From assembly GCA_944358895.1 (NCBI GenBank), contig CALVSB010000013.1, positions 1 through 47,182 of the forward strand: a stretch of 47,182 nt of DNA, in the 5' to 3' direction. The notes beneath the pieces were generated by a model that saw only the letters and a program-made list of their open reading frames with translations, had not been told where the DNA came from and did no database searches. Origin of the DNA: an uncultured Bacilli bacterium. GTDB lineage: Bacteria; Bacillota_I; Bacilli_A; RFN20; CAG-826. Positions 21,212 through 43,982 of the stretch are shown here, one piece after another (position 1 is the stretch's first letter; each line of letters begins with the position of its first letter). A program made the translations under genes and the position numbers.

Positions 21212-21236
21212 AAAAGCGGGCCGCGGGGCCCGCTTT
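21212..21236 (-). terminator. terminator after the flavin reductase gene
   Basis: AAAGCGGGCC/GGCCCGCTTT hairpin with a T-rich tail on the minus strand, about 8 bp past the stop codon. Confidence 0.85.
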
Positions 21237-21244
21237 CAGCTTCC

Positions 21245-21833: not shown

Positions 21834-24800
21834 TTATAGCTTCCCGCCCGGGGAGCGGGGATCGATCCCCTGCCCTTCTTTGAGGAGGAAGTCGTAAAGC
21901 TCCTCGGCGCTAGCAAACGGCAGGCGGTAGGAAGGATGGCTGGCAGATAGAGCCTTCAGCTTCATGAGGTAGCGCCCGGCGTTTTTGACCCCCTCCTCCC
22001 TATTTTGGAGGGGCAGCTCGATGAGGAGGCGGAGGACGTCGATCGTCGCGCTTTTGACCTCCTCCATGTCGCGGTAGGCCTTGATCGCGGCTTTGGAGGA
22101 AACGGGATCGAGCTCGGGGAAGGCCCGGAAGTAGGCGTCGAGAAGCTCTTTTTCCTGAGCTTCCTCGTAGAACATCTTGTGGAGGTGGATGGCGAGGTCG
22201 TAGAGAGGATCGGTAAGCTGGAAGAGCTCCCAGTCGATGAGGGAGAGGGCTCCCTTATCGTCCACGAGGACGTTCCCCCGGTGGAGGTCGCAGTGGCACA
22301 TCGCGAAAGGGCGTTCCCCGATCTTCCCTTCCTCGTCGGGGAAAAGGAGGCCGAGGTCGGAGGGATAACCTAGTTTCTCGTAGAAAGCCTGGTAACGGCC
22401 GAACCACTTCCCGACGAGGGCCACGATGAAGGAACGGTCGTAACGATAGAAAGAATGGCAGTCCTCGTAGTCACCCCGCTTCGGGAGGGGGATTTCCTTC
22501 CGGGCATGGAGTTCCTTCAGGATCGAAAGGAAGCCCGGGAGGTACTTGGATGGTAGGGCCTCGTCGTTCGGGAGGAGGGAACGGAGGGCCTCGCCCGGGA
22601 GATAGCTATGGACGGAGGCCGGGCGCCCCTCGAGGTAAAAGGTTCCGAGATACCGGGGATGGGGAATGGGGAAAGCGATCTCCTCGAGGGCCAAAAGGAC
22701 CTCGTTCTCGTCGTAGAGGCGGATGTCGACCGTATCGAAGTCGGCAACCGGGATCCGGATGACGTATCGCTTTTCATTGACGCTAATTTCGTGGTTCTCG
22801 TTATGGTAGCCGATCCGGAATTCTTCCTTGGGCGAAGAGGCATAAGCAGCGAGGGCGGAGAGCCCTTCAGAGAGCTCGTCGATGGCCTTGAGGAGGCTAT
22901 CGTCGCTCCCCCGCTTTTCCTGGATGGCCGATAGGAGTTCCGGCTCGATGGGCGAATAGTCGCCCTCCATCGTCTTGGCTTCGAGATAGAGGCGGAGAGA
23001 GGCGAGGACCCGTTTTCCCGAGGAGCCCGAGCGGTTCAAATCGAGGACGTTCTTCCGCATGGCTTCCCTGGCCGCGGAGGGCTTCCCACCATGGAGCTCG
23101 CAAAGGGCGAGGAGGTAGCGGGCGTTGCAGATGCCGCCGAGGTAGCCGACTTCGCTCTGGGCCTTGAGGGAGAGTCTGGCATAGCCTTCGGCCTCTGCCA
23201 GTTTCTTGGCCTTGTAGGCCAGGTTTCCCAGCTCGAGATAGGCTTTCCCGAGCTCGAGCTTGTAGCCGTGCCCTTCGGCCTGCTCGACGGCCCGGCGAAG
23301 GAGCGTTTCGGCTTCGGCTAGGGGAACGACGGTCGCGAGGGAATTGAGGCTTTCGACGATGGCGTACATCTTGCTCATGTCGCGGGCGATCTTCAGGGCC
23401 TCCTCGTAATGGGCCCGGGCTTCCTTGTCCTTCTTCATCGCGTGGTAGATGTGCCCGAGGACCCGCTCCCGCGCGAAGTTACCCTCCTCGTTCCCCCTAT
23501 CGAGGCGGAGGGAGGAGGCAATCTTCAGGGCTTCCTCGTAGCGGCCGAAGACGAAATGGAGGTCGCTGATCTTGATGGAGGACATGTAGTAGGCGAACTG
23601 GTCCTGGCCCTTCGAGAGGGAGCGGCTCTTCTCATAAAGAGAGAGGGCTTCCTCGTACTTTCCGAGCTCCCGGCTCGCCTCGGCCCGGTAGTAGTAATAG
23701 TCGGCCTTGACCTCGCCCGGGGCCTGAAGGAAGGGATCTTCCGGCGTGTTATAGGCATCCTCGATCCGGACTTCCATCCGGCTTTGGACGAGGGAGGCGT
23801 AAGGGAGGACCCACTCGTGGCCGGGATTGGTGGCCATCAGGTAGCCGATCCCGTCCTTCATCGCGTCGTAGACCCCGTACTCGACGAAGGAGCGGACGAT
23901 TTCCCGGAGGGGGAAAGCGTCGCCCAGGGCGCTGAAGCCGCTAAGGAGGAAAGAGAAGATGTCGCCGAAGCGGGAAGGATCCTCGGCCGTCCGGGAAAGG
24001 AAGAGGGAGAGGGAATCGACAAGCCCCTCGTGGCCGGGAAAGGGGGCTTTCAAAAGGCGGTAGATCCCTTCGTAGTCCCCTTCGTCGAAGAGGTGCTCGA
24101 TCCCGTAACGGCGGAAGTAGGGATCGAAGAGGAAGGCCGATAGGTCCTTGGAAAGGTAATCGGCGATGAGGCGGTTCCCCGCTTCTTTGGAAACGTAGAA
24201 ACGGTTGCTCGGCTCGCTCAGCCAGTCGCCGAGGGACTTGTGGTAAAGGAAAGGCCGGTCGTCGTCGAGGACGATGAGGGTCTTGAACTTCTTGACGAGG
24301 GCATAGAGGTCGTCTTTGTTGAGGCCGAGGATCTTGGCCAGGCGCGGGATCGGAAGCGGCTCCTTGAGGGCGAGGAGAAGGGAGAGGAAGCGCTTGGCTT
24401 CCCCTTCGAACCCATCCTTCCCGAAGGAGGTTCTAAAGGACTGGGCGAAGACGGCGTTCATGCCGCCCCGGAAGGTATCGACGTCGAGACGCCGGCCAGC
24501 CGAGAGCTCGAAGAAAGTCTTGACGAGGAGGAAGTTCCCCTGGGCCAAGGCGACGATTTCCTTGAGTTGATCGGGCGTGACCGCGACCTTCAGCTGCTTC
24601 GAGAGGAGGTGGACGTAGCCTTCCATGTCGCTTTCCTTCGAGAGGAGGTCGTAGCGCTTGGTGAATGACATCCCGTAATCGACCGCCGCCCCGTTCCGCG
24701 AGGTGACGAGGATCTTCATCCAGCGCGGGAGGGAGGAGAGATTCTCGAAGAGGGCGAGGCCGATGTCCCCGATGTCGGCGTCCCGGCACTCGTCGAGACC

Positions 24801-25730
24801 GTCGATCACGAAGACGAGATTGCTCTCGGGCGATAGCCACTTGGTCGAGCGGACGAAGAAGTCATAGAAATTCTTAGAAATGTCGTTTTTGTCAAGCGAT
24901 GAGAAGTCGATATTCTCCTCGAGGGCGAGACCGTAGGAAGGGAAGCGGACGGAAAGGCTATAGGCAAGGTCCTTCAGGATGAGGAGGGGGTCGAGGCTCT
25001 TCTCGTCGCGCCGGAGGCAGAAATGGATGCCGACGACCCGGGGGTCTTCGTTAGCCAAATGGCTCGAAAGGTAGCTTTTGCCGCTCCCCGGGGCGGCGAC
25101 GAGCCACATGAGGTGGCTCATGGGGTCGTCCATCCAGGCGGCGTAGGCCTTCTCGAAGTCGGGCCGCGGGGCGTAGAAGCCGCCGGGGGCCAGGGTCTTC
25201 GCGAGCTCGGAGGAGGGGTCCTGCGGGGAGAGTTTCTTCTTGAGGTCGATGGCCGTGCCGCTCACGTCGTCGTCCTGGATGCCGTTTTGAAGGGAGGCGA
25301 GGATCGCCTTGAGCTTCCCTTGGTAGCGGGCCTCGATGACGAGGCCGTTCACCGCGTCAATCGCGTCCCGGGCATCGAGCCAGTTGATCCTCGAGACCAA
25401 AAAGGGCGGGGTCGCATCCTCGATGAGGACGGGGACGACCGGGAGGTTGACGCTCCGGGCGTAGGCGATTTCGTCGAGGCAGACCGAGTCGGGGCGCCGC
25501 GTCGAGTGGCGCGACATGAAATAGAGGACGACGTCGCTTTGGGCGAGCCGCGCCTGGATCCAGTCGTCGAAGGGCTCGCCCTTCCCCATGTCCTGGTCGA
25601 AATAGACCTCGTGGCCTTCCTTCTTGAGGTCGCTTGCGACCCGTTCCGGGAAGAAGGAAAGGTAATCCCGCCCGTAGGAAATGAAAATGCGGCGACGAGG
25701 GGCCGCTATCTGTCTCTCGGTTGCTTCCAT
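21834..25730 (-). CDS. TIR-STAND NTPase-TPR-APH kinase fusion protein
   Basis: This is a single 1298-residue protein. Residues about 13-125 form a TIR domain (RRRIFISYGRDYL; CLDEIAYA with Glu87 at the NADase catalytic position). A STAND/NACHT-type NTPase follows with Walker A APGSGKS (213-219), Walker B LVFVIDGLDE (305-314) and a winged-helix-like segment (about 443-500). A TPR superhelix covers about 675-900. The C-terminus (about 970-1290) is an aminoglycoside-phosphotransferase-type kinase with HCDLHRGN (about 1142-1149) and LIDWE (about 1165). TIR-STAND proteins act as immune sensors whose TIR domain depletes NAD; the added kinase is unexpected. TACAAT lies 6 nt before ATG, implying a leaderless mRNA. 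It is alone in its transcript, with GC content like the core genes. Anti-phage function is inference. Confidence 0.85.
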   Translation of the reverse strand: MEATERQIAAPRRRIFISYGRDYLSFFPERVASDLKKEGHEVYFDQDMGKGEPFDDWIQARLAQSDVVLYFMSRHSTRRPDSVCLDEIAYARSVNLPVVPVLIEDATPPFLVSRINWLDARDAIDAVNGLVIEARYQGKLKAILASLQNGIQDDDVSGTAIDLKKKLSPQDPSSELAKTLAPGGFYAPRPDFEKAYAAWMDDPMSHLMWLVAAPGSGKSYLSSHLANEDPRVVGIHFCLRRDEKSLDPLLILKDLAYSLSVRFPSYGLALEENIDFSSLDKNDISKNFYDFFVRSTKWLSPESNLVFVIDGLDECRDADIGDIGLALFENLSSLPRWMKILVTSRNGAAVDYGMSFTKRYDLLSKESDMEGYVHLLSKQLKVAVTPDQLKEIVALAQGNFLLVKTFFELSAGRRLDVDTFRGGMNAVFAQSFRTSFGKDGFEGEAKRFLSLLLALKEPLPIPRLAKILGLNKDDLYALVKKFKTLIVLDDDRPFLYHKSLGDWLSEPSNRFYVSKEAGNRLIADYLSKDLSAFLFDPYFRRYGIEHLFDEGDYEGIYRLLKAPFPGHEGLVDSLSLFLSRTAEDPSRFGDIFSFLLSGFSALGDAFPLREIVRSFVEYGVYDAMKDGIGYLMATNPGHEWVLPYASLVQSRMEVRIEDAYNTPEDPFLQAPGEVKADYYYYRAEASRELGKYEEALSLYEKSRSLSKGQDQFAYYMSSIKISDLHFVFGRYEEALKIASSLRLDRGNEEGNFARERVLGHIYHAMKKDKEARAHYEEALKIARDMSKMYAIVESLNSLATVVPLAEAETLLRRAVEQAEGHGYKLELGKAYLELGNLAYKAKKLAEAEGYARLSLKAQSEVGYLGGICNARYLLALCELHGGKPSAAREAMRKNVLDLNRSGSSGKRVLASLRLYLEAKTMEGDYSPIEPELLSAIQEKRGSDDSLLKAIDELSEGLSALAAYASSPKEEFRIGYHNENHEISVNEKRYVIRIPVADFDTVDIRLYDENEVLLALEEIAFPIPHPRYLGTFYLEGRPASVHSYLPGEALRSLLPNDEALPSKYLPGFLSILKELHARKEIPLPKRGDYEDCHSFYRYDRSFIVALVGKWFGRYQAFYEKLGYPSDLGLLFPDEEGKIGERPFAMCHCDLHRGNVLVDDKGALSLIDWELFQLTDPLYDLAIHLHKMFYEEAQEKELLDAYFRAFPELDPVSSKAAIKAYRDMEEVKSATIDVLRLLIELPLQNREEGVKNAGRYLMKLKALSASHPSYRLPFASAEELYDFLLKEGQGIDPRSPGGKL

Positions 25731-28753: not shown

Positions 28754-30775
28754 ATGGCCAAGTTCGGGAACAAGTTGATCTCCGGTAAATATAGCTTCTT
28801 CGAACGTAAGTTTTTGGTTGAAGAAACGACGGAGATTGACGGCAAAAAGACAAAAATCATCCGCAAAACCAAGTCCTTTAGCGAGTTTGTAGCTTTGCTT
28901 GGCGAACTTAAACACGCCGACATCAGGTGGTATTCCCCTACTCCGGCCGAAATTGAGAAATACGATTTCGAAGGAGCGACCGTCGGTTTCATGACCCGCC
29001 TGCTTCTCAAAAAGAGAGCTCGGAGAAAAGAGCAGGAAGAAAGGGACGAAAAAGCCAGATCCATCATCAGGGAATGCCTAGCGGCCAAACCGGAAAGCAT
29101 ACCTGAAGTCCCAAATCGCTTTCTTCCTTCTACCCAAGCCGAAGACGAAAGCCGGCTCCTCGATAAGCCCGATTTCCAGATTTTCTACATCTCGGACATC
29201 CATCTCGACATGAAAATCGCCGCCCCGTTCATGGCCCAGGATGTTGACTCCCTAAAAGCAAAGCAGATTGAAAAGGCAGTCGATAAGAAAGCCGCTGAAT
29301 TGGCCAAAAGCTATTTCGACCAATTGAAATCAAATAGGACCGTCATCCTCATCGGAGGGGATACGGCCAGCGACCCCTACCTCTTCGGCCTGTTCGCCAA
29401 GGGGCTCAAAAAGCACGGCTTGCCGGCCGAACGGACTTTCTTCGTGCTCGGCAACCACGAACTTCGGGACGATTCACATGGAATCGAAGATAAGGATGAA
29501 TATCAAAAATTGGTGGATTCGTATCGCGAGGCCCTCGCACCATACGGGATGCAGCTTTTGGAAAACGAGCTCTATATTCCAGGCTACGACGAAGGCCGCG
29601 GAATCGTTCTTCATGCCGACCAAATCAAGGGCTTGACCAAACGCGGGGCGACCATTCTTTTCGGGTCATGCCCCTTTGCCGTTTTCGGGGCGATGGGCCA
29701 TTCGCACCTAGATGCGCATAATCCCAAACCCGTTGACTTAGACGGGAGACTCGAAGCAAATAACAGCCTCAATGTGCATTTGGCCGACTTGGCCAATCAG
29801 CTGGTAGAGAAGTTAGAGGAAGTCTTGCCCGACGGAAGGACGCAGATTGTCCTCACCCACACCCCGCCGCGCTTTTGGAAGCGGAACGATCCGGCGGCCG
29901 GCTTTTATTTCGTGTATGGCCATGTCCACCAGAACGTGCTGAGAAACTACGGGCGGATCCGTTACTACGGCGACAACATGATTGGGGAGGAAGAGTTGCC
30001 CCTCGTGTTCAAATCTTTCTTCGTCGGAATGGCGATTGACCCATTTGCCAATGTCGGCGATGGCATCAGGGAAATAAGTCCCGAGATGTATTCCGACTTC
30101 AATTCCTCCCGGTCGATCGTGGCTAGGGCAAGAAAGGGCCTCCAACATATCTATCTCGTGAAAAGAGGCGGCTATTGTGCCTTCTTCGGGCGGCGAGAGG
30201 GCCATTCGCTTCTGATGCTCAACGGTGGAGCTGTCCGCCGCGTGCAAAACCAAGACCTCCATTACTACTTCGACCATTTGACCGAATACGTAAGAGCGGC
30301 AACGGATCTACTTAGGCCCTTTCTCAAAATGAGACACGATCTTTCAAACGACGTGAAAATGATCGGCGGCCTTGGAAATGAACATGGCGCCATCGTGGAT
30401 ATCGATTTCTATAACCACGTTTTCCTCAATCCGCTCGACGGCAAGAGAACTTGCTATTTTGCGACGAGCACGGCCGATAAATATGTCTTTCCCAACCTTA
30501 CTAGCCTTCTAGCGTCGCACTGCCCGAATTTGCTCCCTCGCTTCAACCATCTTCCAGCCGTTCGAAAGGAAAGTTGGGAAAAGGGCGGCAAATCGTCTAG
30601 CAAGGGGATAAGGGAAACAAGGACCGATATTTACCGCTATTCGAATCTTATCTACGCCCTTGAATACATTTTGAAATCAAAGGTTGTACGGGTTTGGGTC
30701 GACGAAATACTTGATGGCAGGAAAATCGAATTAGCAAACGTCCAGGGCTTATTGGAAGATTTGCAAGAGGATTAG
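28754..30775 (+). CDS. large calcineurin-like metallophosphoesterase
   Basis: The 673-residue protein has a central metallophosphoesterase domain with all metal-binding motifs in order: SDIHLD (about 148), GGDTAS (about 200), GNHE (about 233), THTPP (about 367) and GHVHQN (about 388). The first 140 residues are charged and not recognised. The last 240 residues hold a second conserved-looking block (GNEHGAIVDIDFYNHVFLNPLDG, about 539-561). The substrate is unknown; related enzymes hydrolyse phosphodiesters in nucleic acids or nucleotides. It opens the lower-GC block that continues with nuclease and ATPase defence genes and is convergent with the DUF4420-like gene. A defence role is inferred from context. 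Confidence 0.8.
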   Translation: MAKFGNKLISGKYSFFERKFLVEETTEIDGKKTKIIRKTKSFSEFVALLGELKHADIRWYSPTPAEIEKYDFEGATVGFMTRLLLKKRARRKEQEERDEKARSIIRECLAAKPESIPEVPNRFLPSTQAEDESRLLDKPDFQIFYISDIHLDMKIAAPFMAQDVDSLKAKQIEKAVDKKAAELAKSYFDQLKSNRTVILIGGDTASDPYLFGLFAKGLKKHGLPAERTFFVLGNHELRDDSHGIEDKDEYQKLVDSYREALAPYGMQLLENELYIPGYDEGRGIVLHADQIKGLTKRGATILFGSCPFAVFGAMGHSHLDAHNPKPVDLDGRLEANNSLNVHLADLANQLVEKLEEVLPDGRTQIVLTHTPPRFWKRNDPAAGFYFVYGHVHQNVLRNYGRIRYYGDNMIGEEELPLVFKSFFVGMAIDPFANVGDGIREISPEMYSDFNSSRSIVARARKGLQHIYLVKRGGYCAFFGRREGHSLLMLNGGAVRRVQNQDLHYYFDHLTEYVRAATDLLRPFLKMRHDLSNDVKMIGGLGNEHGAIVDIDFYNHVFLNPLDGKRTCYFATSTADKYVFPNLTSLLASHCPNLLPRFNHLPAVRKESWEKGGKSSSKGIRETRTDIYRYSNLIYALEYILKSKVVRVWVDEILDGRKIELANVQGLLEDLQED

Positions 30776-30842: not shown

Positions 30843-31796
30843 CTAAGCCCATCTCATGTTTTTAAGAGTTATATGGTTCCCAATTTCCTTTAGTACGTCG
30901 GCCATGTCCAGTGCCTTTAACCCTTGGCAGTTTACGCGGTAGGAGACGTCGTCGATCGCTGAAGGGCAATTTGAGATATCGAGGCGAGGCATGTCTTCGA
31001 GACGGTAGAAAGATAAAGCCTCCAGGGCCTCCTCCTTATTGAAACGAGGGCCGCGATTTTCCTTATCGACCCTCGCTTCTTTCATGAGTTGGTTGAGAGC
31101 CAAATAGATATCGGGGTCATCATCATCGAGGAGATCGATCGCTTCTTTGAAGAGGCCATAAAGAGAATCTTCGGAAGAAGGAGAAGGCGAAAGGACGACC
31201 GAGGCCACGATTCTCTTTGTAGAATTGACAGTCAATTCCTCGTGGCTGAAGCGATGAAGCCGCTTCGGTCCGGGAGCCGTTTTGACAAGGACATGCGGGC
31301 CTAGATGGTCTAAGGAAGTAAGATCTTCCGGTCTGATGGTTGAGGTCCAGCCGGCTTTCTTGAGATAGATGTAGACAAGCAAAAACCCGGTTAGCTTTAG
31401 CCGATAGGAAACAAGGCTGCAAGCCGGCTTGGCTTTTAGGAAGACGCTCAAAGAAGCGATGAGCTTTTCCAACTCGCTTTTGGAAATGGGCCGCTTAACA
31501 GCTTCGAAGAGATAATTGAAAATGACTTCGAAATCGCCCCTGAAAGACCGGGGATAGTCTTTGGGTGAGACGGCATGGTAGATGATTTTAGTACCGTCGT
31601 CTTCGCAATGGACGGAGTTGAAATGGATGGTCAGGTAGTCGCCATGATAGGCCATCTCTTCGATCGTTGTTTCACTGCTCCGAATGAGAATGGCAGGTTT
31701 CCGGTCGAAGTCCATCGTCACGACGATGTTATGGGTCTTCAGGTCATCCCAAGCGTCGAGTATTGCCTGATTCAATAGCTTCTCATAGTCGATCAT
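30843..31796 (-). CDS. PD-(D/E)XK-motif (DUF4420-like) protein, catalytic acids apparently lost
   Basis: The 317-residue protein follows the pattern of the PD-(D/E)XK-motif family PF14390 (DUF4420). It has the LxxEGELL-like helix (here KLTGFLLVYIYL), the nuclease strand (here HVLVKTAPG, where the family has EVKT), the FSHEELT segment, and a C-terminal ALSFYRLEDMPRLDISNCPSAIDDVSYRVN that matches the family end. In both catalytic positions the acidic residue is replaced (GEL to GFL, EVK to LVK), so it may be a non-cutting partner. ATG 31796 is preferred to the farther start; TACAAT lies 20 nt upstream of it. Family partners (methyltransferase, Z1 and AIPR proteins) are absent here. Confidence 0.6.
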   Translation of the reverse strand: MIDYEKLLNQAILDAWDDLKTHNIVVTMDFDRKPAILIRSSETTIEEMAYHGDYLTIHFNSVHCEDDGTKIIYHAVSPKDYPRSFRGDFEVIFNYLFEAVKRPISKSELEKLIASLSVFLKAKPACSLVSYRLKLTGFLLVYIYLKKAGWTSTIRPEDLTSLDHLGPHVLVKTAPGPKRLHRFSHEELTVNSTKRIVASVVLSPSPSSEDSLYGLFKEAIDLLDDDDPDIYLALNQLMKEARVDKENRGPRFNKEEALEALSFYRLEDMPRLDISNCPSAIDDVSYRVNCQGLKALDMADVLKEIGNHITLKNMRWA

Positions 31797-31933
31797 GCAT
31801 AGACATCCGATCAGAACATATTGTAGCATCGGGATTAATGAAAAAAGATCGATCAATCCTGAACTTTTTAACTTATGGTATGCTTCGAAGAATACGGATG
31901 ATGCTCAAAATGTGATATATGCAAAATGTGAAT

Positions 31934-32482
31934 TTACTCACTTATTTTTGCAAATCTCTCAACAATACTTTTAAAGATTGAGAGGATGTTCGATTTTCCA
32001 TTGATATATGAGAACAAAGCATTTTTGAGATTATTTTCGCTAAAGTGAGGATGCCCATAAAACACTAGAGCCTTTTTCCCTTTGTCTCCGCTCGAAACGG
32101 AGTGACCAAGGAAAACGTTCTCCACATCCTCCGCAAAATAGATAAGGAAATACCCTCTTTCCTCGCAGTATTGAATAATCTTTCTATTGAGATTTTCTGA
32201 CTCAAAACCACTATCGGTATCGATTGCATAGGCGACGAAACTCATAGACTCACGTGACTTATCGTGATGACTATAAGAATCTGCCAATTTCTGGATTTTG
32301 CTTTGAACCGCTTTGTCATCATATTTGCTCTTGCCATTCATATGGACAAAGCTGATTTTCCAGTCGTGAGGAAAGCAGTCGAAGTGTTCAATGGTTGCAT
32401 TGATGTATAGCTCATCAGTCTTGGTGTTTTTTGCTCCTTCGACCACGATGATCAACTGTACCCTTAACTGACGGCCCGTCAC
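31934..32482 (-). CDS. RloB/AbiLii-like TOPRIM-domain protein
   Basis: The 182-residue protein has a TOPRIM-type arrangement: LIIVVEGAKNTKTDELY at the N-terminus (Glu15) and the DxD motif in YAIDTDSGF (about 88-96), followed by a segment (YFAEDVENVFLGH) in the place of the NPcFElWLLLH region of RloB proteins. RloB-like TOPRIM proteins are thought to be nucleases partnered with AAA ATPases, as in AbiL (AbiLi/AbiLii) and, more distantly, PARIS. Its GTG start overlaps the stop of the AAA ATPase gene (GTGA), confirming a coupled pair. Confidence 0.65.
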   Translation of the reverse strand: MTGRQLRVQLIIVVEGAKNTKTDELYINATIEHFDCFPHDWKISFVHMNGKSKYDDKAVQSKIQKLADSYSHHDKSRESMSFVAYAIDTDSGFESENLNRKIIQYCEERGYFLIYFAEDVENVFLGHSVSSGDKGKKALVFYGHPHFSENNLKNALFSYINGKSNILSIFKSIVERFAKISE

Positions 32483-33804
32483 TTCATCTCTCCTTCTCCG
32501 AGAAAAATGCGATAGAACGTATAGTCATGCACATTAAAGGGATTGCCGGCAATCATTCCTTCCGGATAGAGGCGGCTTGCCTTGTAGCGTGAATGGCGCG
32601 TCCACTCCTCATGTTCGCCTTGATCGCTTATGAAATCGATGGCGTGTTTGCTGTTTTCAAGAGCCCGCATGGGGGCAATGTTTTGACTAGTAAAGACGAG
32701 TTGCCCTTCGGAATAAGAAGCAAAAAAGGATATAAGTTTCTCCAAATATACTTCGTGGATTGAAGCGTCTAGTTCATCGAAAAAACCAATGCCGCCTTTC
32801 GCTACTTTTTCTAGCATTTGGAAGAGGTTCACTATCCGCCGGATGCCTTTGCTTTCAAGCGAGAGGGCAACGGAATAGTCCTCATAGACGAAAACGAGAT
32901 TGCACACAACAAAAGGCCCAACAGGTTTCTCACTGATTTCTATCTCTCTGAGGGAAGGCTTAAATAGATGAACAAAATCCCTTAAATGAGTAATAGACTC
33001 ACGGAGCTTCGGAAGATCATCTTTCATTGAAACGATGTCATAACCGGGTAGTTCGAGATAATTGAAAGATAATCCCTTTTGAGCTTGTTCCATGGCATCC
33101 ACGGCTTTTCTCATCGCCTCGGTTGATCGCAAGATATTTTGAGGGTTGAACGGAACATTTTGATCTTCGACAAAAATGCTAAGAGACCCGAAAAACGACT
33201 TTATCAAATCGACGATTCGCCTAAGTTCCGATCCGCTTTCAGCCCTTTCTGAATTCGAAACGAAAGAGGACGAAAGAAGAAGGTTGTGGAGCTTATCCTT
33301 TAAATCGTTCAAAACCGTCTCAGACAAGTCCTTAGGAAGAAAACAAATTTCTCCTTCTTTGGCCTCGAAGACAGGTTTCTCACTTCGATTAATAGAATTC
33401 CCGATGATTTTGCAGATTTTTTCTTCGGCTAGGCTCCAGTGGCCAGCATCGGATTTCAAAACAATTTCATACGAAAGGAAATCCGTGATTTCGTTATCTT
33501 TCTCTTCGTCATAGCATGCAAAATAAACTTTCGCGTGAAAAGGGATTCCCAAAAAGGAAAGATGACTTGATAGATAATCATCGGAGAAGGAAAGATACCT
33601 GGAATTTGTCGCTACGCTTTTTAGTAAAAGAAGGGATAGCAGAATCGAGGTCTTTCCTGATCCATTGGTTCCGTAAATTGATTTTACGTTAGTTGTCTTA
33701 ACTTCTAAATTCTTCGGTATCTTGGCATCATGAAAGTTGAGGACGAGCGGCTTGGCGATGTTTCGCATCCCTGATGTTTCAAAACGATAAAGAAAGAAAC
33801 GCAT
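32479..33804 (-). CDS. AAA15/ABC-type ATPase, AbiLi/RloA-like
   Basis: The 441-residue protein begins with the RecF/OLD-like strand-turn (MRFFLYRFETSGMRNIAKPLVLNF) and Walker A YGTNGSGKTS (44-53). A long helical insertion follows. The ABC-like signature is LESKGIRRIV (about 325), Walker B is GIGFFDELDASIH (about 346-358) and the switch segment is LVFTSQN. Such ATPases sense phage infection and release or activate a partner nuclease. The downstream RloB/TOPRIM gene overlaps by 4 bp. An SD (GGAGGG) and TATAAT precede the ATG, and a perfect inverted repeat overlaps the -35 position, suggesting repression. Confidence 0.75.
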   Translation of the reverse strand: MRFFLYRFETSGMRNIAKPLVLNFHDAKIPKNLEVKTTNVKSIYGTNGSGKTSILLSLLLLKSVATNSRYLSFSDDYLSSHLSFLGIPFHAKVYFACYDEEKDNEITDFLSYEIVLKSDAGHWSLAEEKICKIIGNSINRSEKPVFEAKEGEICFLPKDLSETVLNDLKDKLHNLLLSSSFVSNSERAESGSELRRIVDLIKSFFGSLSIFVEDQNVPFNPQNILRSTEAMRKAVDAMEQAQKGLSFNYLELPGYDIVSMKDDLPKLRESITHLRDFVHLFKPSLREIEISEKPVGPFVVCNLVFVYEDYSVALSLESKGIRRIVNLFQMLEKVAKGGIGFFDELDASIHEVYLEKLISFFASYSEGQLVFTSQNIAPMRALENSKHAIDFISDQGEHEEWTRHSRYKASRLYPEGMIAGNPFNVHDYTFYRIFLGEGEMK

Positions 33805-33825
33805 GGACTTTTTCCCTCCGATTGC

Positions 33826-33831
33826 ATTATA
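33826..33831 (-). promoter_or_regulatory. -10 box of the AAA-RloB operon
   Basis: TATAAT on the minus strand, 21 nt before the ATG and upstream of a GGAGGG ribosome-binding site. Confidence 0.55.
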
Positions 33832-33846
33832 TACGACTAATCAATA

Positions 33847-33866
33847 TAAGTGATAATCTTCACTTA
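33847..33866. promoter_or_regulatory. 20-bp palindrome, candidate operator
   Basis: TAAGTGA and TCACTTA form a perfect 7-bp inverted repeat around TAATCT. It is centred about 28 bp upstream of the -10 box, overlapping where a -35 hexamer would be. Confidence 0.45.
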
Positions 33867-33930
33867 AGTTTAATTGTCAAAAGCTAAGAAGACTAATATG
33901 AAGAATTGCTTTCACAAAGCCTATATAGAG

Positions 33931-34248
33931 TCATCCTTCCACCTTCAATAGGACAATTCCCTTCGCAAAACCCCCACGCTTTTCCTTCTTTTCGAGCCGA
34001 ATGGCCTCAACTTCCTGCTTATCGAGGCCGATTTCTTCTTCAAGGGAGTACACCACTTCAAGTAGGTCGGCCATTTCCTCGGCCGAAAGGGAAGAGCGCA
34101 GTTCCTCGGTTTCCTCGCCGATCTTGTCTAAGAGATAGCCTATCTTTTCGGCCCGATTGGCAATCCTCGTCTCGCAGGTCTTGCCATCCGCTTCGATGAT
34201 CTCGGGAATGCGGTCGCGGACTAACTTGTCGTAGAGCTTGATGGCCAT
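33931..34248 (-). CDS. MazG-like/PRA-PH-type nucleotide pyrophosphatase
   Basis: The 105-residue all-alpha protein starts KLYDKLVRDRIPEII and shows the NTP-pyrophosphatase motif GEETEEL ... EEMADLLEVV (EExxE followed by ExxD, about residues 44-62), which binds magnesium. Such house-cleaning enzymes split NTPs or dNTPs to monophosphates. It lies 4 bp after the HNH gene as last gene of the four-gene DruH/DruE-like operon. In that setting it could deplete or adjust nucleotide pools during phage attack (inference), or could be a passenger. Confidence 0.75.
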   Translation of the reverse strand: MAIKLYDKLVRDRIPEIIEADGKTCETRIANRAEKIGYLLDKIGEETEELRSSLSAEEMADLLEVVYSLEEEIGLDKQEVEAIRLEKKEKRGGFAKGIVLLKVEG

Positions 34249-34252
34249 GGTA

Positions 34253-35260
34253 CTACCCTTTCTTCGGCTTCCAGCCGGTCTTTACTCCATTGTAAGCAGC
34301 AATCCGGGCAAGGGCACGCATATCGTGATTGCCCAGGTTGAACCGCTCGTTTCTCTTTTGGACGAGGTCTAGATACTCAGTTGACGGTATGGCATCGCGT
34401 TTCCCATTATTGCAGCTACGGCAGGCGAAGACAAAGTTCCATTCGGGGTCACTTTTGATGAATGACCAAGGTATGACGTGGTCGAGTTCGCCTTCGCCTT
34501 TTCGGAGAGGCTTGCCGCAGTAAAAGCAGATGTTGTTTCCACCGCAATCGCGTTCCAGGGCTTCCTTGAATGGCTGGAGGTTGACCCGCTTCGTTATTTC
34601 TTCGAGTTTGGTCGAAAGATAAGGTATCGGTTCAAGCCCGTGTTCTTTCAAGATCTTCTCGCACATCTTCAGCCATTCGTAGTAATTGACCTGATCGATC
34701 AGGCTCTTGTGGTGAGAAAGGAAGTCCATCGAATTTTGGTTTAGCCAAAGGCAGTTTTCTTTCTTGGAGAAACCATAGATGAGGCCTTCGGTATCGTAGT
34801 AGAAAGCCCCGATGACGTTTTCCTTGAAGACCGGATATGCCTTCTTCATCGCCTCGATTTTCACGTCAGTCCGAAGAGACTCAAAAGGAGCTTTCAGCAA
34901 AGGATTCGCAGAAAGCATATCCTTAAAAACGCGGGCAATGCCGCTTGTTTTGCCTTCGCTCGTCATCGGCATCTGCGGAATGTCATAGAGAACCACCGCA
35001 TTCCAATAGATTGTCACGAAAGTCGAAGCGATAGTTCTTAAGTCGAGATAGAAAAGGCCATCGTCACCCTTTTCGGACGAAAAAAGATTGTCGAGGAGCG
35101 ATTTCAAGAAGCCGAACTTATAGGTTGCGCTATGTTTGCCTTCAAAAAGGGAATGAGCCAGGCAGGCAAAGAAATCAGCCGAAGAATTGTCCTTTAGTTC
35201 TCCTTCTTTGAGGCGGTGTCCACCGCCGTACATTTTCCCCATACTTCCAGAATGCGCCAT
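34253..35260 (-). CDS. HNH endonuclease
   Basis: The 335-residue protein has a C-terminal HNH domain: CFYCGKPL (about 245), ELDHVIPWSF (the DH pair, about 260), then the Asn in EWNFVFACRSCNNGKRD with the second zinc CxxC (about 275-290). The first 230 residues are a helical domain without a recognised motif. The start codon shares one base with the stop of the DruE-like helicase gene (TGATG), so the nuclease is translated in step with it. It probably cuts DNA as part of that system. Second in-frame ATG codons at residues 7 and 10 are alternative starts. Confidence 0.8.
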   Translation of the reverse strand: MAHSGSMGKMYGGGHRLKEGELKDNSSADFFACLAHSLFEGKHSATYKFGFLKSLLDNLFSSEKGDDGLFYLDLRTIASTFVTIYWNAVVLYDIPQMPMTSEGKTSGIARVFKDMLSANPLLKAPFESLRTDVKIEAMKKAYPVFKENVIGAFYYDTEGLIYGFSKKENCLWLNQNSMDFLSHHKSLIDQVNYYEWLKMCEKILKEHGLEPIPYLSTKLEEITKRVNLQPFKEALERDCGGNNICFYCGKPLRKGEGELDHVIPWSFIKSDPEWNFVFACRSCNNGKRDAIPSTEYLDLVQKRNERFNLGNHDMRALARIAAYNGVKTGWKPKKG

Positions 35261-38200
35261 CAGAACATCAATATTTTAGATGCTAATTTTTCCTCTTTGA
35301 CATCGTTTTTTTCCACGAAATGAGAAAGGAAATCAATAGCTGCAAAACGGTCCAAGCTGTCGTGAGCCCTTTGATTTTCGTAGCTTCGAAGGCACTTATA
35401 GCAGGATGGATTGCAATCGCAGTTCACCATATTCCGATACGCCACATTGAAAATTGCTTCAATCACATCGCCCTCATTCTCAATGATTTTCCGAGCATAC
35501 CCGGCTCCGCCCGGCACGGCATCATAGAAGACGATGGAATAGGAGAGCCGACCATCATTTGCCGAAGGCGCCAAAACGGCCTTTAGCTCGCTCCTTTCAA
35601 TACTTAGCAAATCGGTTGCAGCAAATAGAAGAGCATACATAGCCGAGAGCATCGTTTTGTAATCTGAAGTATCAATGCCAAAACTTAATTTAACAACGTC
35701 GGTATTAAAGACGTGATGTAGCCCAAACCGTTGGAGGTCATGCGATGAGCAGTCATGCGAACCAAAGAATGAGCGATGAGCTCTCTTGGTGTGGATGACG
35801 TTTGCTTTATTCGCCATTTCCTTTGTGGCTTTCAAATCACCTTCGATTTTCTCGTCCTCGCAGAGAGAGTAGCCACAAACCGGGCACACGTAGAACGATT
35901 CGACCGAACGGATAAGAAGGGAGTCATTAGACGAGGACTCAGCAACGATCGGTATTCCACCAAGTTGAAATTCAATGGTTTCGATATGCCGCCGCTCAGC
36001 GTTCCCAATATAAATGTCTTCAGATCGATAGTTCTTTTGCTGATGCCCCATCGGAACTCTTTTTCCATCGCCCTCTGTCAAGAAACCAGCTCGCGGTTCG
36101 ATGCTCGGAGAGAAATCGGCGCGTTCGATGATCCTTCCGCAACTAGCGCATGAAACTCCGTCAGCCGGGACATCAGTCAAGCGGAAATTGATAGCCCCAC
36201 AATCGTCATGGGAACATTTGGCAATATAGGAAGTATGAAACGAGTGAGCGGCAGCTCCGACAGCGGTTCTCCTTATATATCGGCTGGTGTACATCTTTCC
36301 GTTCGCGATTACCTCGCTCGACGGTGCATATTCGGCAATGGCCAAAGACAAATCACGTGCAAGCCGTAAATCGCAGCGATCGACATTGTTTTTTACCTCG
36401 AGTTCAACCGTATCGACCGGGAATCCGTAATGAGGAAGAATATTTCCTCTGACCAGGAATTCGATGAGAGGCGACGACTGATAAAGTTTGAGCCGCCTAG
36501 CGATTCGATTAACTTCGTCCCATTTCTCTGCCTTCTTCATGCTTTCGATGGCCCCGTTAAATTCCGTGACATTGTTGTCGTATTCGCTAATTAGAGTCGT
36601 AAAAGTCCCTGTGGGGCCTATGAATGAGTCAAGCCACGAAAAATCAGTTATTCCAAGGCGCTTATGAAGATCGTTAACGTCAGGGATTGAGGCTTTCAGC
36701 ATTTCGAGCAAGCGAACGGGACGAGTCAAAAGCCATTTTTCGAAATCCTCATATCCCTTTTTGTTTATAAACATCTCAATCCTGTTGCCGGCATATTGCT
36801 CAGGATGGTCGGAGAAGTACATCGAAAGAGCCACGTCATATATGTGGCGACGAACAATTTTCTCGTTATCCAGTTTGAAAACTGGCGGGTTGATTATTCC
36901 ATCGATCATTAAAGTAGGGTTTTTGAAATAATTGAGGTCGTGGGAATTCGTCCTTGCATAGGTTAAGCAGTAAGCCGCCGCATCAAGACTTCGGCCGGCC
37001 CGGCCGGCCCTCTGGGCATAATTCGATGGCAATGGCGGGATGTTGCGGAGAAAGACCGTCTCGAGATCGCCGACGTCGACGCCCATCTCAAATGTCGTAG
37101 AGCAAGAAAGGGCATTGATTTCTTTCTTTATGAACTCTTCTTGGTACCGCAGACTTTCCTCTCGGCTCAGCTGGGCAGTATGTTCCTTCACAAAAAGAGG
37201 AGACATCAATTTAGAGTTATATAAAGCGGCATAATGGTTTTTCGTTTGAAGATCGAGGGGATCAACCTCGTGAACAACACCGCCGCAAGAAACGTCTGAG
37301 CGATGGCCTTCATGGCAAAAAGCCGAAATCCGTCCGCATTTCTCGCAAAAATACCAGTGGGCTCCCTCCATTCCTGGGACAAGTATTTTAAAAAGGGAAG
37401 TGGGAATGGCAAAAGACTCGGGCGAGTGCCCTGCAATTCTTTTTAAACCACAGCATCCAATCAGGACGTAATCCCAAAACTCGCTAAGGAAGTCGATTGC
37501 CGCATCGACTTCCAACTTTAAAAAGTTTTGAACAAGTTTGACTCTATTATTTAGGATGTAGGACCCATTCTTTCGCTTGGATGGGAGGAAAGGAGTCGCA
37601 AATAAATTCTCCGAAATGTCGGAACCATTTTTGAAAACCCCGCGCTGAATCGGGGTATAGAAAATGTACTCACGGTCATCATCGCTGAGCAAGGCAGAAT
37701 CAGCAGGGACGACCGCGCCAGCCTTAACAAATTCGAACGCCAGTAAGTTAACAAACGAACGTGCATCCTCTTCTGAAATGTTAACGCCCGGCCACTTCAC
37801 GATAGCATTGATAAGCTCGGCATTGCTTGCTCCCTCAAATGAAAATTGCATAAAGCCAAGAGAAGCCAAAGACGTTGGGCTTGTGGCACGAGATAGTTCA
37901 TTGAGAAGAGCCACCCAGGCTTGCGATTCACTTACATCGGTTAATTTGCTCTGATCTGAATAGCTGGCCGCAAAAGTCCGTTTGGAGCAAAAATACGACT
38001 TAAGAGGCCCAACCAAGTCATCGATGGTAACACCGTTCTTTATGTCATCATGCCTGGCTTGAAGAATGTGGCAGATGCCCCGGCGACGGAGGAACTCTTT
38101 GTAGTTGTCCGCTAGATAACATGCAAATTTGGCAGCTTCTTGACGGCTATCAGAAAAGATAAGGAATTGCCGTGCTTTTTTCTCTTCATCAGGCGGCAAA

Positions 38201-40077
38201 GATCGCGCCAAACTTGAGAAGTGGCTGAGCCCGCTAGAAGTTTTGGCAGCGGGACGATAGATTGTTTCCGGGAGCTCTTCGTAGAGAGCAACAGCTAAAA
38301 CAGAGGTGGCTGCATCGTTTCCAAGGTAGAACCGTGAATAGTGAGAATTGTTTCTGTCGCAGGCGAGGCAACGGTCACCTGTTTTTCGCGCTTCAACGAG
38401 TACATAGGCAGATGGGTCATGGTCGCACGGCCTGGTAGAGCGTCTTTCTTCCACAATGGCTCCGCAATGAGGGCAGAGAAGATAGCGTTTTGTTTTTTCT
38501 TCATCTTTTTTCTCTTCATTGCCACCGGTGGCGATGGGATGAAGATATGTTGTATCTCTATCGAGACGGCTTGCTTGAACAAAGCGTGAGCCTTGTGTCT
38601 TCCCTACTAGAGCATAGTCGCCGCAGTCATTGCAGATGGCAATCTCAAAAACGGCATCGCCTTTGTCATCCTCTTTCTTTCTTGTGAGATAGAGTTTCGG
38701 GCCATCGACCAATGAAACGTAAGCCCCTTCCAAACCCCTAACAAAAAAGTGGTATCGGGCATCGACCAAGCATTCATTGGCGCGGCGGGCTTTTGATGCA
38801 AGCGAAACCAAAGAAATTAGTTCTTCCTCGGAACTCAATCCGATGGATTCCCAAAGTCCTTTGAGATTTACGGACTTCCCACCTATCCCTGTAAAAAAGG
38901 AGCGAAGGCGATTGAATTCCAGACTTTTGGGAAGAAAGTCAAAAAGTATTTCCTCGTCAGTCCCCGCGATGTGCTCGATACCATAGCTGTCGAGAACTTC
39001 CGAAACGCTATTCTTTTCGTCAGCGAGCTTAAGAAAAAGTGAGGGGTCAAAGGAAACAGCATCTTTGCTTGGCTCAAAGGCTACGCGCGAAGAGCGAATA
39101 ATGGATGATTCATTAAAGAATGAACCAGTCAAATTCTTGGCAAAGCGAACGATGTCATCATCGGAACCAGGACCAGTTCCTAGCGTTGCGCTGGTAAGGA
39201 TGAACTGAACATCGCCGCCATCATGTATCCGGGCTTTCAAACGCCTTAGAAGCATCGAAGTCTCGATTCCAGTTGCCCCACTATATACATGGGATTCGTC
39301 CAACACGACATAGCGAAACGATGAACCAGAAAAGATAACGTCGTCAGCCGGGCGAAAAAGCAAATGCTCAAGCATAGCGTAATTGGTAAAGAGAATGTTA
39401 GGCGGCGTTTCCTTCATCCGGTCGCGCGAAACAAGTTCATTAGGAAGGACATCCCTTAGCTTCTCGATCGTTTCGCCGGCGAACATAGAACGATAAAGAC
39501 TGATCGCATCTTCTTCCTTGTTTTCAGTTCCACCGTTGTATACCCCAAAAGTTATGTCTGGATAGTCCATCAGGATTTTGCGGAGGTTTTTAACCTGATC
39601 ATTGGCCAGAGCATTCATTGGATAAATAATCATCGCTCGAATGCCAGGTCCGAGAGTTTCCTTCTCTTTCTCCCGCAGCAACTCGTTAATAACCGGAATG
39701 AGGAAGCAATTGGTTTTGCCGCTCCCCGTCCCGGTCGTGATAACTGCATTATTCCCTCCGACAATCTGACGGATGGCCTTTTCCTGGTGGCGGTAAAGAG
39801 GTCTATTTAAAGGCAAAACCGGCGGCACGCCCGGTCGGTGTCCTGACTCCAGTTCAGCAAATAGAGGAGAAAGAACCCCCTCATCGATAAGGCTTGCAAT
39901 TGAATGGCCTTTTTCAAAAACGCTATTCATTTCCAAAAAGGGGCCATTAGAAACGAAGTTTTCGAGACTGCTTTCAAACTGCGAGCGCAAAAGCGGATCC
40001 CTAAGTCTGTAGGCCGTATCGATGTAGTTCGCGAATTCCTCTTTGATTGCCTTGGAAGCTTTGAGCGGGTTGAACAT
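35260..40077 (-). CDS. DruE-like superfamily 2 helicase with DUF1998 domain
   Basis: The 1605-residue protein has SF2 helicase motifs: YRHQEKAI (about 95), Walker A TTGTGSGKT (114-122), DEAH-type LDESH (about 257), SATLG, helicase-C STTFEMGVDVGD (about 995) and QRAGRAGR (about 1023). Cysteine pairs suggest several zinc knuckles, for example CNDCG, CPHCG, CEKCG and CPVCG. The C-terminal DUF1998 has GGAGYA and CDCNPSCYKCLRSYENQRAHDSLDR (about 1550). Length and domain order fit DruE, the signature helicase of Druantia anti-phage systems. It follows the DruH-like gene by 13 bp, with AGAGG before its ATG. DISARM and MrfA-type helicases are less likely, on length and domain order. Confidence 0.8.
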   Translation of the reverse strand: MFNPLKASKAIKEEFANYIDTAYRLRDPLLRSQFESSLENFVSNGPFLEMNSVFEKGHSIASLIDEGVLSPLFAELESGHRPGVPPVLPLNRPLYRHQEKAIRQIVGGNNAVITTGTGSGKTNCFLIPVINELLREKEKETLGPGIRAMIIYPMNALANDQVKNLRKILMDYPDITFGVYNGGTENKEEDAISLYRSMFAGETIEKLRDVLPNELVSRDRMKETPPNILFTNYAMLEHLLFRPADDVIFSGSSFRYVVLDESHVYSGATGIETSMLLRRLKARIHDGGDVQFILTSATLGTGPGSDDDIVRFAKNLTGSFFNESSIIRSSRVAFEPSKDAVSFDPSLFLKLADEKNSVSEVLDSYGIEHIAGTDEEILFDFLPKSLEFNRLRSFFTGIGGKSVNLKGLWESIGLSSEEELISLVSLASKARRANECLVDARYHFFVRGLEGAYVSLVDGPKLYLTRKKEDDKGDAVFEIAICNDCGDYALVGKTQGSRFVQASRLDRDTTYLHPIATGGNEEKKDEEKTKRYLLCPHCGAIVEERRSTRPCDHDPSAYVLVEARKTGDRCLACDRNNSHYSRFYLGNDAATSVLAVALYEELPETIYRPAAKTSSGLSHFSSLARSLPPDEEKKARQFLIFSDSRQEAAKFACYLADNYKEFLRRRGICHILQARHDDIKNGVTIDDLVGPLKSYFCSKRTFAASYSDQSKLTDVSESQAWVALLNELSRATSPTSLASLGFMQFSFEGASNAELINAIVKWPGVNISEEDARSFVNLLAFEFVKAGAVVPADSALLSDDDREYIFYTPIQRGVFKNGSDISENLFATPFLPSKRKNGSYILNNRVKLVQNFLKLEVDAAIDFLSEFWDYVLIGCCGLKRIAGHSPESFAIPTSLFKILVPGMEGAHWYFCEKCGRISAFCHEGHRSDVSCGGVVHEVDPLDLQTKNHYAALYNSKLMSPLFVKEHTAQLSREESLRYQEEFIKKEINALSCSTTFEMGVDVGDLETVFLRNIPPLPSNYAQRAGRAGRSLDAAAYCLTYARTNSHDLNYFKNPTLMIDGIINPPVFKLDNEKIVRRHIYDVALSMYFSDHPEQYAGNRIEMFINKKGYEDFEKWLLTRPVRLLEMLKASIPDVNDLHKRLGITDFSWLDSFIGPTGTFTTLISEYDNNVTEFNGAIESMKKAEKWDEVNRIARRLKLYQSSPLIEFLVRGNILPHYGFPVDTVELEVKNNVDRCDLRLARDLSLAIAEYAPSSEVIANGKMYTSRYIRRTAVGAAAHSFHTSYIAKCSHDDCGAINFRLTDVPADGVSCASCGRIIERADFSPSIEPRAGFLTEGDGKRVPMGHQQKNYRSEDIYIGNAERRHIETIEFQLGGIPIVAESSSNDSLLIRSVESFYVCPVCGYSLCEDEKIEGDLKATKEMANKANVIHTKRAHRSFFGSHDCSSHDLQRFGLHHVFNTDVVKLSFGIDTSDYKTMLSAMYALLFAATDLLSIERSELKAVLAPSANDGRLSYSIVFYDAVPGGAGYARKIIENEGDVIEAIFNVAYRNMVNCDCNPSCYKCLRSYENQRAHDSLDRFAAIDFLSHFVEKNDVKEEKLASKILMF

Positions 40078-40090
40078 AGGGTGCTACCTC

Positions 40091-42865: not shown

Positions 42866-42871
42866 GCCTCT

Positions 42872-42899
42872 ACTTTAATTGCAATTCACTCAGCTTCAA
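42872..42899 (-). promoter_or_regulatory. promoter of the DruH/DruE-like operon
   Basis: TTGAAG, a 16-bp spacer and TAAAGT on the minus strand; the -10 ends 6 nt before the GTG start, which implies a leaderless transcript. Confidence 0.65.
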
Positions 42900-42983
42900 T
42901 AAAAATGTAGGAATTAGATTTCTACAAATTTTTTGGCACATATCTGAAGCGAAAAAGAATGGTTCTTCGCTTCGGCTTCCCAG

Positions 42984-42994
42984 TAGTCTAAACT
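42984..42994 (+). promoter_or_regulatory. -10 region of the zinc-finger nuclease gene
   Basis: Overlapping TAGTCT and TAAACT; the latter ends 10 nt before the ATG, giving a near-leaderless transcript without a ribosome-binding site. Confidence 0.35.
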
Positions 42995-43004
42995 AAACCG
43001 CGAT

Positions 43005-43982
43005 ATGGGAAACTTTGAAAAAACGTGCCCGATTTGCGGGAAACCTACCCGTTCAATGTACGGGCGTTCGGCGAGCGACGGACTTTGTATCTACCACGGT
43101 ACCCTCCTCAAGGAGGGAAAAATTAAAAAGGGGTCTGATGGCCAGTATGCCTACACGGATAGCGGGAAACCCGTCGGCTCCTCAACAAGCCAAGTAAAAG
43201 CGCCATACCACCCGTCTTCCAAAGACTTCGGAAAATGCATCGTTTGCGGCAAGCCAAAATCCAGCATGGGTCCCCTTTGTAAGGACTGCTATCGGCACGC
43301 CCTCGAGGAGGCAGCCCTCTCGAGCGAATCCCAAAGCCAGCTGATTGAACATTATCAAAACCTCAAGGCAAACATGTACCGCATGTACGGGGACGACGCT
43401 TTTCAAAGCGCGTCGATCCGTCTTTACGCAATCGCTTATAACCTCTCGAGCAAATTCCACTACGGGGCTTGTTTGTCCTTCTTTGAAGACGACATTCCGG
43501 ACATCAAAAAGAAAATAGCGGCAAAGGAAGAGAAGAAAAAGCTCGACAAAGAAAGTGCCGAAAGAAAGAACGATTCGCTTTTGAAGGACAATATTAGTGA
43601 AGACATGCACATGCTAGATAGCGATGGCGAAGTCAAAATCGACAATGCCATTTGGCATTTGACCCCGGAGCTCGGCATCATGCACGTCCCTCATCAATAC
43701 GTAACCGAAATCGACAGCGAGGAAGCGGGCCGGACAGTGAAAAGCGACTGGAAGATTTCCTTCTACAAAAATCCTGGATGCCACTTCTATATCGAGTACT
43801 GGGGCATGAAAAACGACCGCCGCTACGAAGAAAACAAGCAGGAAAAGAAATCGCTTTATGACCGTTACGGCATTACCTACATCGGAATCGAAGCCGATGA
43901 AATAAGCGATCAAAACGCCCTGATGGACCGTCTAAGGCGCGAAATTTACAAAATCAAACGGTCAAAAGGCATTCCCGAATAA
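43005..43982 (+). CDS. zinc-finger protein with C-terminal PD-(D/E)XK-type nuclease domain
   Basis: The 325-residue protein has two N-terminal cysteine clusters (CPICGKPTRSMYGRSASDGLC, residues 9-29, and CIVCGKP...CKDC, about 77-94), a charged linker rich in Lys and Glu, and a C-terminal domain. That domain has VKSDWKIS (Asp), FYIEYWGMKND (Glu in IEYWG) and EENKQEKKSLYDRYGITYIGI (Lys), the order of the Vsr/UvrD-associated PD-(D/E)XK nucleases. It is divergent from the DruH-like gene and shares its intergenic region. It probably cleaves DNA, and its zinc fingers may target it; the substrate is unknown. Confidence 0.65.
   Translation: MGNFEKTCPICGKPTRSMYGRSASDGLCIYHGTLLKEGKIKKGSDGQYAYTDSGKPVGSSTSQVKAPYHPSSKDFGKCIVCGKPKSSMGPLCKDCYRHALEEAALSSESQSQLIEHYQNLKANMYRMYGDDAFQSASIRLYAIAYNLSSKFHYGACLSFFEDDIPDIKKKIAAKEEKKKLDKESAERKNDSLLKDNISEDMHMLDSDGEVKIDNAIWHLTPELGIMHVPHQYVTEIDSEEAGRTVKSDWKISFYKNPGCHFYIEYWGMKNDRRYEENKQEKKSLYDRYGITYIGIEADEISDQNALMDRLRREIYKIKRSKGIPE

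Follow-up and report, generated by a model that had tools for sequence, protein, structure and literature searches.

The window analyzed here is a stretch of 47,182 nucleotides from an uncultured Bacilli bacterium (contig CALVSB010000013.1, positions 1 to 47,182), and the gene in question lies within it on the minus strand at 21834..25730. It encodes a protein of 1298 amino acids (aa) with the architecture TIR-STAND(NPHP3_N)-TPR-APH: an N-terminal TIR domain, a STAND nucleoside triphosphatase (NTPase), an array of TPRs, and a C-terminal small-molecule kinase of the APH fold. The reading frame runs from ATG to stop over 1298 codons plus the stop without interruption, and the Pfam-A matches for TIR_2, NPHP3_N, TPR, and APH each exceed the gathering cut-off. 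The original prediction, made from the sequence alone, had described this single frame, a TIR domain with Glu87 at the NADase position, intact Walker A and B motifs, TPR-like repeats, and an APH kinase with HCDLHRGN and DWE motifs; all of these are borne out by the translation and by the profile and alignment evidence below, and a full-length relative, 44% identical, is found in another genus.

The TIR domain, a predicted NADase effector, spans aa 15-123 (25362..25688; Pfam TIR_2, E-value (E) 8e-18) and also matches SARM1 and RPP1 by profile. When the PDB was searched by profile, Glu87 (25470..25472) paired with the Glu of the SARM1 stretch DWVHKEI, which we take to be the catalytic Glu642, and the protein thus shows the sequence features of a TIR domain with a catalytic Glu in the alphaC region. 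The NPHP3_N-type STAND NTPase follows at aa 194-345 (24696..25151; E 3.3e-21), with Walker A APGSGKS at aa 213-219 (25074..25094) and a Walker B region at aa 307-314 (24789..24812) that ends in IDGLDE (aa 309-314), where I309, D310, D313, and E314 are conserved. Across five TIR-NTPase homologues, Glu87, Walker A G215, G217, and K218, and Walker B D310, D313, and E314 are invariant. Behind the NTPase lies a predicted winged-helix segment at aa 445-529 (24144..24398), for which the HTH_TANC1 match (E 0.007) is weak and under the curated cut-off; with both Walker motifs ahead of this segment, the protein shows the sequence hallmarks of STAND-class NTPases. The TPR array, a predicted ligand-binding or autoinhibitory arm, covers about aa 676-940 (22911..23705; TPR_12, E 1.4e-10 over five stretches; TPR_2, 8.7e-9). 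There was also a weak Pfam match to TCAD9, and a literature search on TCAD retrieved only unrelated papers.

The kinase, together with a conserved C-terminal extension, occupies aa 970-1285 (21876..22823), and the Pfam APH match covers aa 970-1204 (E 2.9e-25). The catalytic loop HCDLHRGN (aa 1146-1153; 22272..22295) is invariant in all four fused homologues, the metal-binding DWE of IDWE (aa 1166-1168; 22227..22235) is invariant in the clade, and R992 (22755..22757) stands at the position of the N-lobe ATP-binding lysine in both clade and structure-profile alignments. Arginine takes the place of this lysine in aligned Mph macrolide kinases as well. In seven aligned members of the APH clade, fused and standalone, R992, E1008, D1148, N1153, D1166, and E1168 are invariant, so that the marks of the APH superfamily (the HxDxxxxN loop, the metal-binding Asp, and the N-lobe Lys/Arg and Glu) are all present. 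APH-family structures were also matched by profile, in some cases across both lobes; the top matches included the choline kinase LicA, macrolide kinases, and the kinase of ACAD11. Judged by these residues, the kinase is apparently active. An aminoglycoside or macrolide resistance kinase was considered and rejected, as NCBIfam scores all fell far below their cut-offs (e.g., APH_3p 16.8 versus 205).

Structure prediction gave fold matches for one half of the protein. The model of the TIR-NTPase half had a mean predicted local distance difference test (pLDDT) score of 54, which is low confidence from a two-sequence alignment, and its best fold matches were the plant TIR-NLR RPP1 (E 9e-9) and Avs3, followed by SARM1 and SPARTA TIR proteins. 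The AlphaFold model of the APH half, likewise from a two-sequence alignment, reached a pLDDT of 41 without a significant fold match, and the APH assignment therefore rests on sequence profiles.

The same architecture, which the original prediction had suggested looking for in other genomes, recurs at full length in a second genus. In G055, a genome of another genus in the same family, we found a collinear relative of 1273 aa with all four domains and all catalytic motifs, 44% identical over its full length (TIR 61%, NTPase 45%, TPR 48%, and APH 45%). Within the window's own genus, G189 carries two fragments that end at contig ends: an N-terminal half (84%) adjoining the same oxidoreductase gene as in the window, and a C-terminal half (77%) adjoining the same flavin reductase and pheS genes. 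G268, also of this genus, carries the C-terminal half as a fragment ending at a contig end. Four genomes thus bear the APH form, two of them (G189 and G268) as fragments, and a continuous frame from the end of the TPRs through the kinase is present in a third genome. By codon comparison, the ratio of nonsynonymous to synonymous substitution rates (dN/dS) was 0.10 for TIR, 0.19 for NTPase, and 0.21-0.23 for APH, indicating that every measurable domain is under purifying selection and that the kinase is maintained.

The fused form is rare. Our genome searches were within the window's phylum and named collections. Any match at all occurred in 12 of 196 family genomes, and in full-length searches of 196 family, 279 order, and 395 class genomes (sets that overlap in part) the APH-bearing form, whole or in pieces, was confined to the four genomes above, as it was in a kinase-profile search of 392 phylum genomes. 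An alignment-based pattern scan of about 85,000 species genomes, which relies on short exact motifs and may miss relatives elsewhere, matched only the G055 contig; a scan with the single protein returned none. No relatives of the fused protein were found in viral collections. TIR-NTPase homologues without APH, of up to about 1000 aa, are more widespread in the class. These TIR-NPHP3_N-TPR proteins (L004, L005, L015, L017, L018, and others) share the TIR and the NTPase, in which the catalytic Glu and the Walker motifs are invariant. Overall identity is 18-23% in the three that were aligned, and the complete ones stop after the TPRs at about 950-1000 aa without a kinase domain. Because of this wider distribution and this end point, the kinase is best seen as a C-terminal module added to a common TIR-NTPase-TPR backbone.

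The nearest standalone relatives of the kinase that we found are actinobacterial and plasmid-borne (Streptomyces and Nocardia), at 25-28% identity and E down to 3e-17. They share the clade signature beyond generic APH motifs (HxDLHRxN, DWEL, DPxxDxAxHL, and a C-terminal DxxR) and, unlike the window protein, are roughly 355-410 aa long without TIR, STAND, or TPR. In three Streptomyces lineages, the gene forms a cluster with genes for a HAD-family hydrolase and a winged-helix regulator of the GntR type (L022:4005-9038, L024:5751-9125, and L025:5977-9005, all on plasmids). Near the standalone kinases in Streptomyces and Nocardia there was no annotated TIR gene, the adjoining genes being mostly the HAD hydrolase and GntR regulator. 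At L024, genes for an Mrr-type restriction enzyme and a type I-E cas6e also lie near the cluster.

The patchy distribution and the genomic surroundings point to an accessory gene. In the window, the fused gene and a flavin reductase gene lie between pheS and an oxidoreductase gene. These two flanking genes are direct neighbors in the congener G024, separated by 545 bp, which identifies an equivalent site without the fused gene. In G055, the fused gene lies among same-strand genes, two of which encode a VirD4/TraG-type coupling protein and a ClpP protease, and this neighborhood looks like a conjugative element. The guanine-plus-cytosine (GC) content of the fused gene matches that of the host in both genera (0.61 and 0.34). 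We conclude that the fused gene is best seen as an accessory gene.

Several further observations were made around the gene. The flavin reductase probably starts at an ATG ∼28 bp past the stop codon of the fused gene, and cotranscription of the two is therefore possible in the window's genus; a strong terminator-like hairpin follows the flavin reductase gene at 21212-21237. The flavin reductase was rejected as a coinserted partner, being present in 21 of 37 genus genomes, on another contig in G024, and without a match in G055. At locus L021, the gene directly upstream of the fused gene (L021:2844-5963) encodes a 1039-aa predicted surface protein with long Gly/Asn/Asp-rich repeats, and the conjugative coupling protein is adjoined by a 725-aa protein without a Pfam match (L021:12704-14881), in which N-terminal membrane segments and a C-terminal EHQRWNAYMISKG-like stretch, recalling RyR-type domains, can be made out by eye. 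Farther along the window, 30843-43982 is a low-GC island (0.47 versus 0.615 for 4-28 kb) that encodes a DUF4420 PD-(D/E)XK protein, an AbiLi/OLD-like ATPase (PADLOC, E 9e-28), an HNH protein, a 1605-aa DruE-family helicase (E 7e-168), and unannotated proteins of 924 and 325 aa; it is a candidate divergent Druantia-like defense cluster. A 673-aa calcineurin-like phosphoesterase is encoded at its edge (28754-30775).

The reading we lean toward, tentatively, is that the protein is a single-protein, NLR-like TIR-STAND receptor whose C-terminal APH kinase sits on the input side, in sensing or licensing. The N-terminal TIR would be the effector, which, once oligomerized, would cleave NAD+ and thereby stop or kill the cell; the NPHP3-type STAND NTPase would act as a nucleotide-driven oligomerization switch; and the TPR array would restrain this switch and receive the trigger. 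We infer these steps from what the domain families do and from the TIR-STAND-TPR system validated in P4 satellites. The APH kinase would bind, and probably phosphorylate, a small hydroxylated ligand, or it would read the state of ATP or a metabolite, and the TPRs could relay this event, or its failure during infection, so that the TIR effector is licensed or released. We placed the kinase on the input side because, by analogy with the P4 TIR-NLR and Avs5, the N-terminal TIR would be the effector and the C-terminal part the input; the C-terminal repeat region of Avs5 is essential for activation and is its proposed phage sensor (PMC12931631), and the APH domain occupies the end of the window protein where Avs5 has that region. 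For the window protein itself we infer NADase activity, a defense role, and the input-side kinase; what we observed is the four-domain chain with intact active-site residues in TIR, NTPase, and kinase, its recurrence in a second genus, purifying selection, and an accessory and mobile distribution. The more specific proposal, a TIR-NLR in which the trigger is a metabolite sensed or chemically converted by an active integrated kinase, with phosphotransfer gating NAD+ depletion within one polypeptide, is possible, though we hold it with more doubt.

Several points weigh against this input-side reading. The kinase-half model yielded no usable fold. Regional evolutionary rates do not separate sensor from effector: the TPRs are equally conserved in the APH-less homologues, and the faster evolution of the APH/TPR half, which might be taken as the sign of an arms race, has similar regional counterparts in those homologues. 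The gene lies outside the window's defense island, and the two genera have no partner gene in common. In addition, the conservation of the kinase would suit an effector equally well.

This last point leads to the main rival, which we hold with more doubt than the input-side reading: the APH kinase is a second effector that, after STAND oligomerization, phosphorylates a host or phage small molecule (a nucleoside, sugar, choline-like compound, or lipid precursor) while the TIR destroys NAD+. Its active site is intact and under purifying selection, and APH kinases count as effectors in other conflict systems: active ones are reported from vWA/MoxR ternary systems, and small-molecule kinases from iSTAND2/TERNS3 systems (PMC7159879, PMC8195603). 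Against it, known STAND proteins have their effector at the N terminus and sensing at the C terminus, and here the TIR already takes the effector place; by this comparison, a C-terminal position after the repeats would fit the sensor side of characterized STAND proteins at least as well. The original prediction had proposed that the kinase works on a TIR product, inactivates a ligand, or serves as a second effector; the sequence by itself speaks neither for nor against these activities.

Three other explanations are improbable, to a similar degree. The first is that the kinase makes or destroys a signal by acting on what the TIR produces (ADP-ribose or a cyclic ADP-ribose isomer). In its favor, the two enzymes are fused in one chain, and the fusion is kept in two genera, but the standalone relatives in Streptomyces and Nocardia have no annotated TIR gene nearby, which makes this less likely, and no ThsA-like receptor was recognized beside the gene in either genus. 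The second draws on plant NLRs, in which integrated bait domains are known. Here, the module added to a backbone otherwise without a kinase would have been copied from a metabolic or resistance kinase that is the target of a phage factor, and its catalytic activity would be incidental; we give this little weight, as all catalytic residues are kept, which a bait does not strictly need, and no phage protein related to the APH domain was found in the viral collections. The third is that the same parts make up a signaling or stress regulator, concerned for example with nutrient or cell-state control, and not a defense protein. Its position outside the defense island and a GC content that matches each host, indicating long residence, speak for such a regulator; the patchy distribution, the equivalent site without the gene, the conjugative neighbor in the other genus, and the first three domains shared with a validated antiphage TIR-NLR make it unlikely. 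Finally, the concern raised with the original prediction that two separate genes had been joined by an assembly or frame error, or by a chance fusion, is already refuted by the collinear full-length relative in another genus, whose genome was assembled independently, by the continuous TPR-to-kinase frame in a third genome, and by synteny within the genus.

STAND immune receptors are usually viewed as having repeat arms that sense phage proteins or nucleic acids. That an enzyme with an intact active site stands where sensing is expected raises the possibility that some bacterial NLR-like proteins respond to small-molecule chemistry instead or, alternatively, that some have two enzymatic outputs. 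The protein carries three separate active sites on one polypeptide, making the choice directly testable by point mutants. It also connects TIR-STAND receptors in a concrete way with the actinobacterial HAD-APH operons, a proposed source of other conflict-system domains.

When we compared the protein with known systems, the TIRs of Thoeris ThsB/ThcB showed weak profile similarity. The window protein additionally has STAND, TPR, and APH; it scored 30.7 against the ThcB4 model (cut-off 220), which does not place it in Thoeris, and no ThsA-like partner was recognized beside the fused gene in either genus. A PADLOC scan of the protein returned weak ThsB1 and Aga matches alone, from a library that may or may not hold TIR-NLR. 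Avs (AVAST) proteins, for which we know of no C-terminal kinase, share the N-terminal effector and STAND NTPase and have a C-terminal repeat sensor. Avs3 appeared in the fold search, while the PADLOC Avs models gave no match at E 0.01. Kaur et al. (2020, PMC7159879) described active APH kinases, though few, among the effectors of vWA/MoxR ternary systems, and an aminoglycoside-kinase-like small-molecule kinase is listed among effectors in a 2021 follow-up (PMC8195603). In these, as in iSTAND2 and TERNS3, an active small-molecule kinase from the aminoglycoside-kinase superfamily likewise belongs to a conflict system built on an NTPase, but they are multi-gene systems with vWA/MoxR or iSTAND, whereas the window protein joins TIR, STAND, and TPR to the kinase in one chain; by Pfam, no vWA, MoxR, or VMAP genes lie around the gene in L021 or among the window's nearest genes. 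The claim that a kinase on such a protein is undescribed therefore holds in part: APH kinases in conflict systems were known beforehand, and the exact TIR-STAND-TPR-APH fusion was not found described in the open-licence literature. The closest known system is the TIR-NLR of P4 satellites, a TIR-STAND-TPR protein that protects Escherichia coli from phages and for which its authors proposed TPR sensing, NTP-driven oligomerization, and NAD+ degradation (Rousset et al. 2022, PMC9122126). No APH kinase is described for it, unlike the window protein; by architecture and Pfam, the two share a single chain with an N-terminal TIR, a central STAND NTPase, and C-terminal TPRs.

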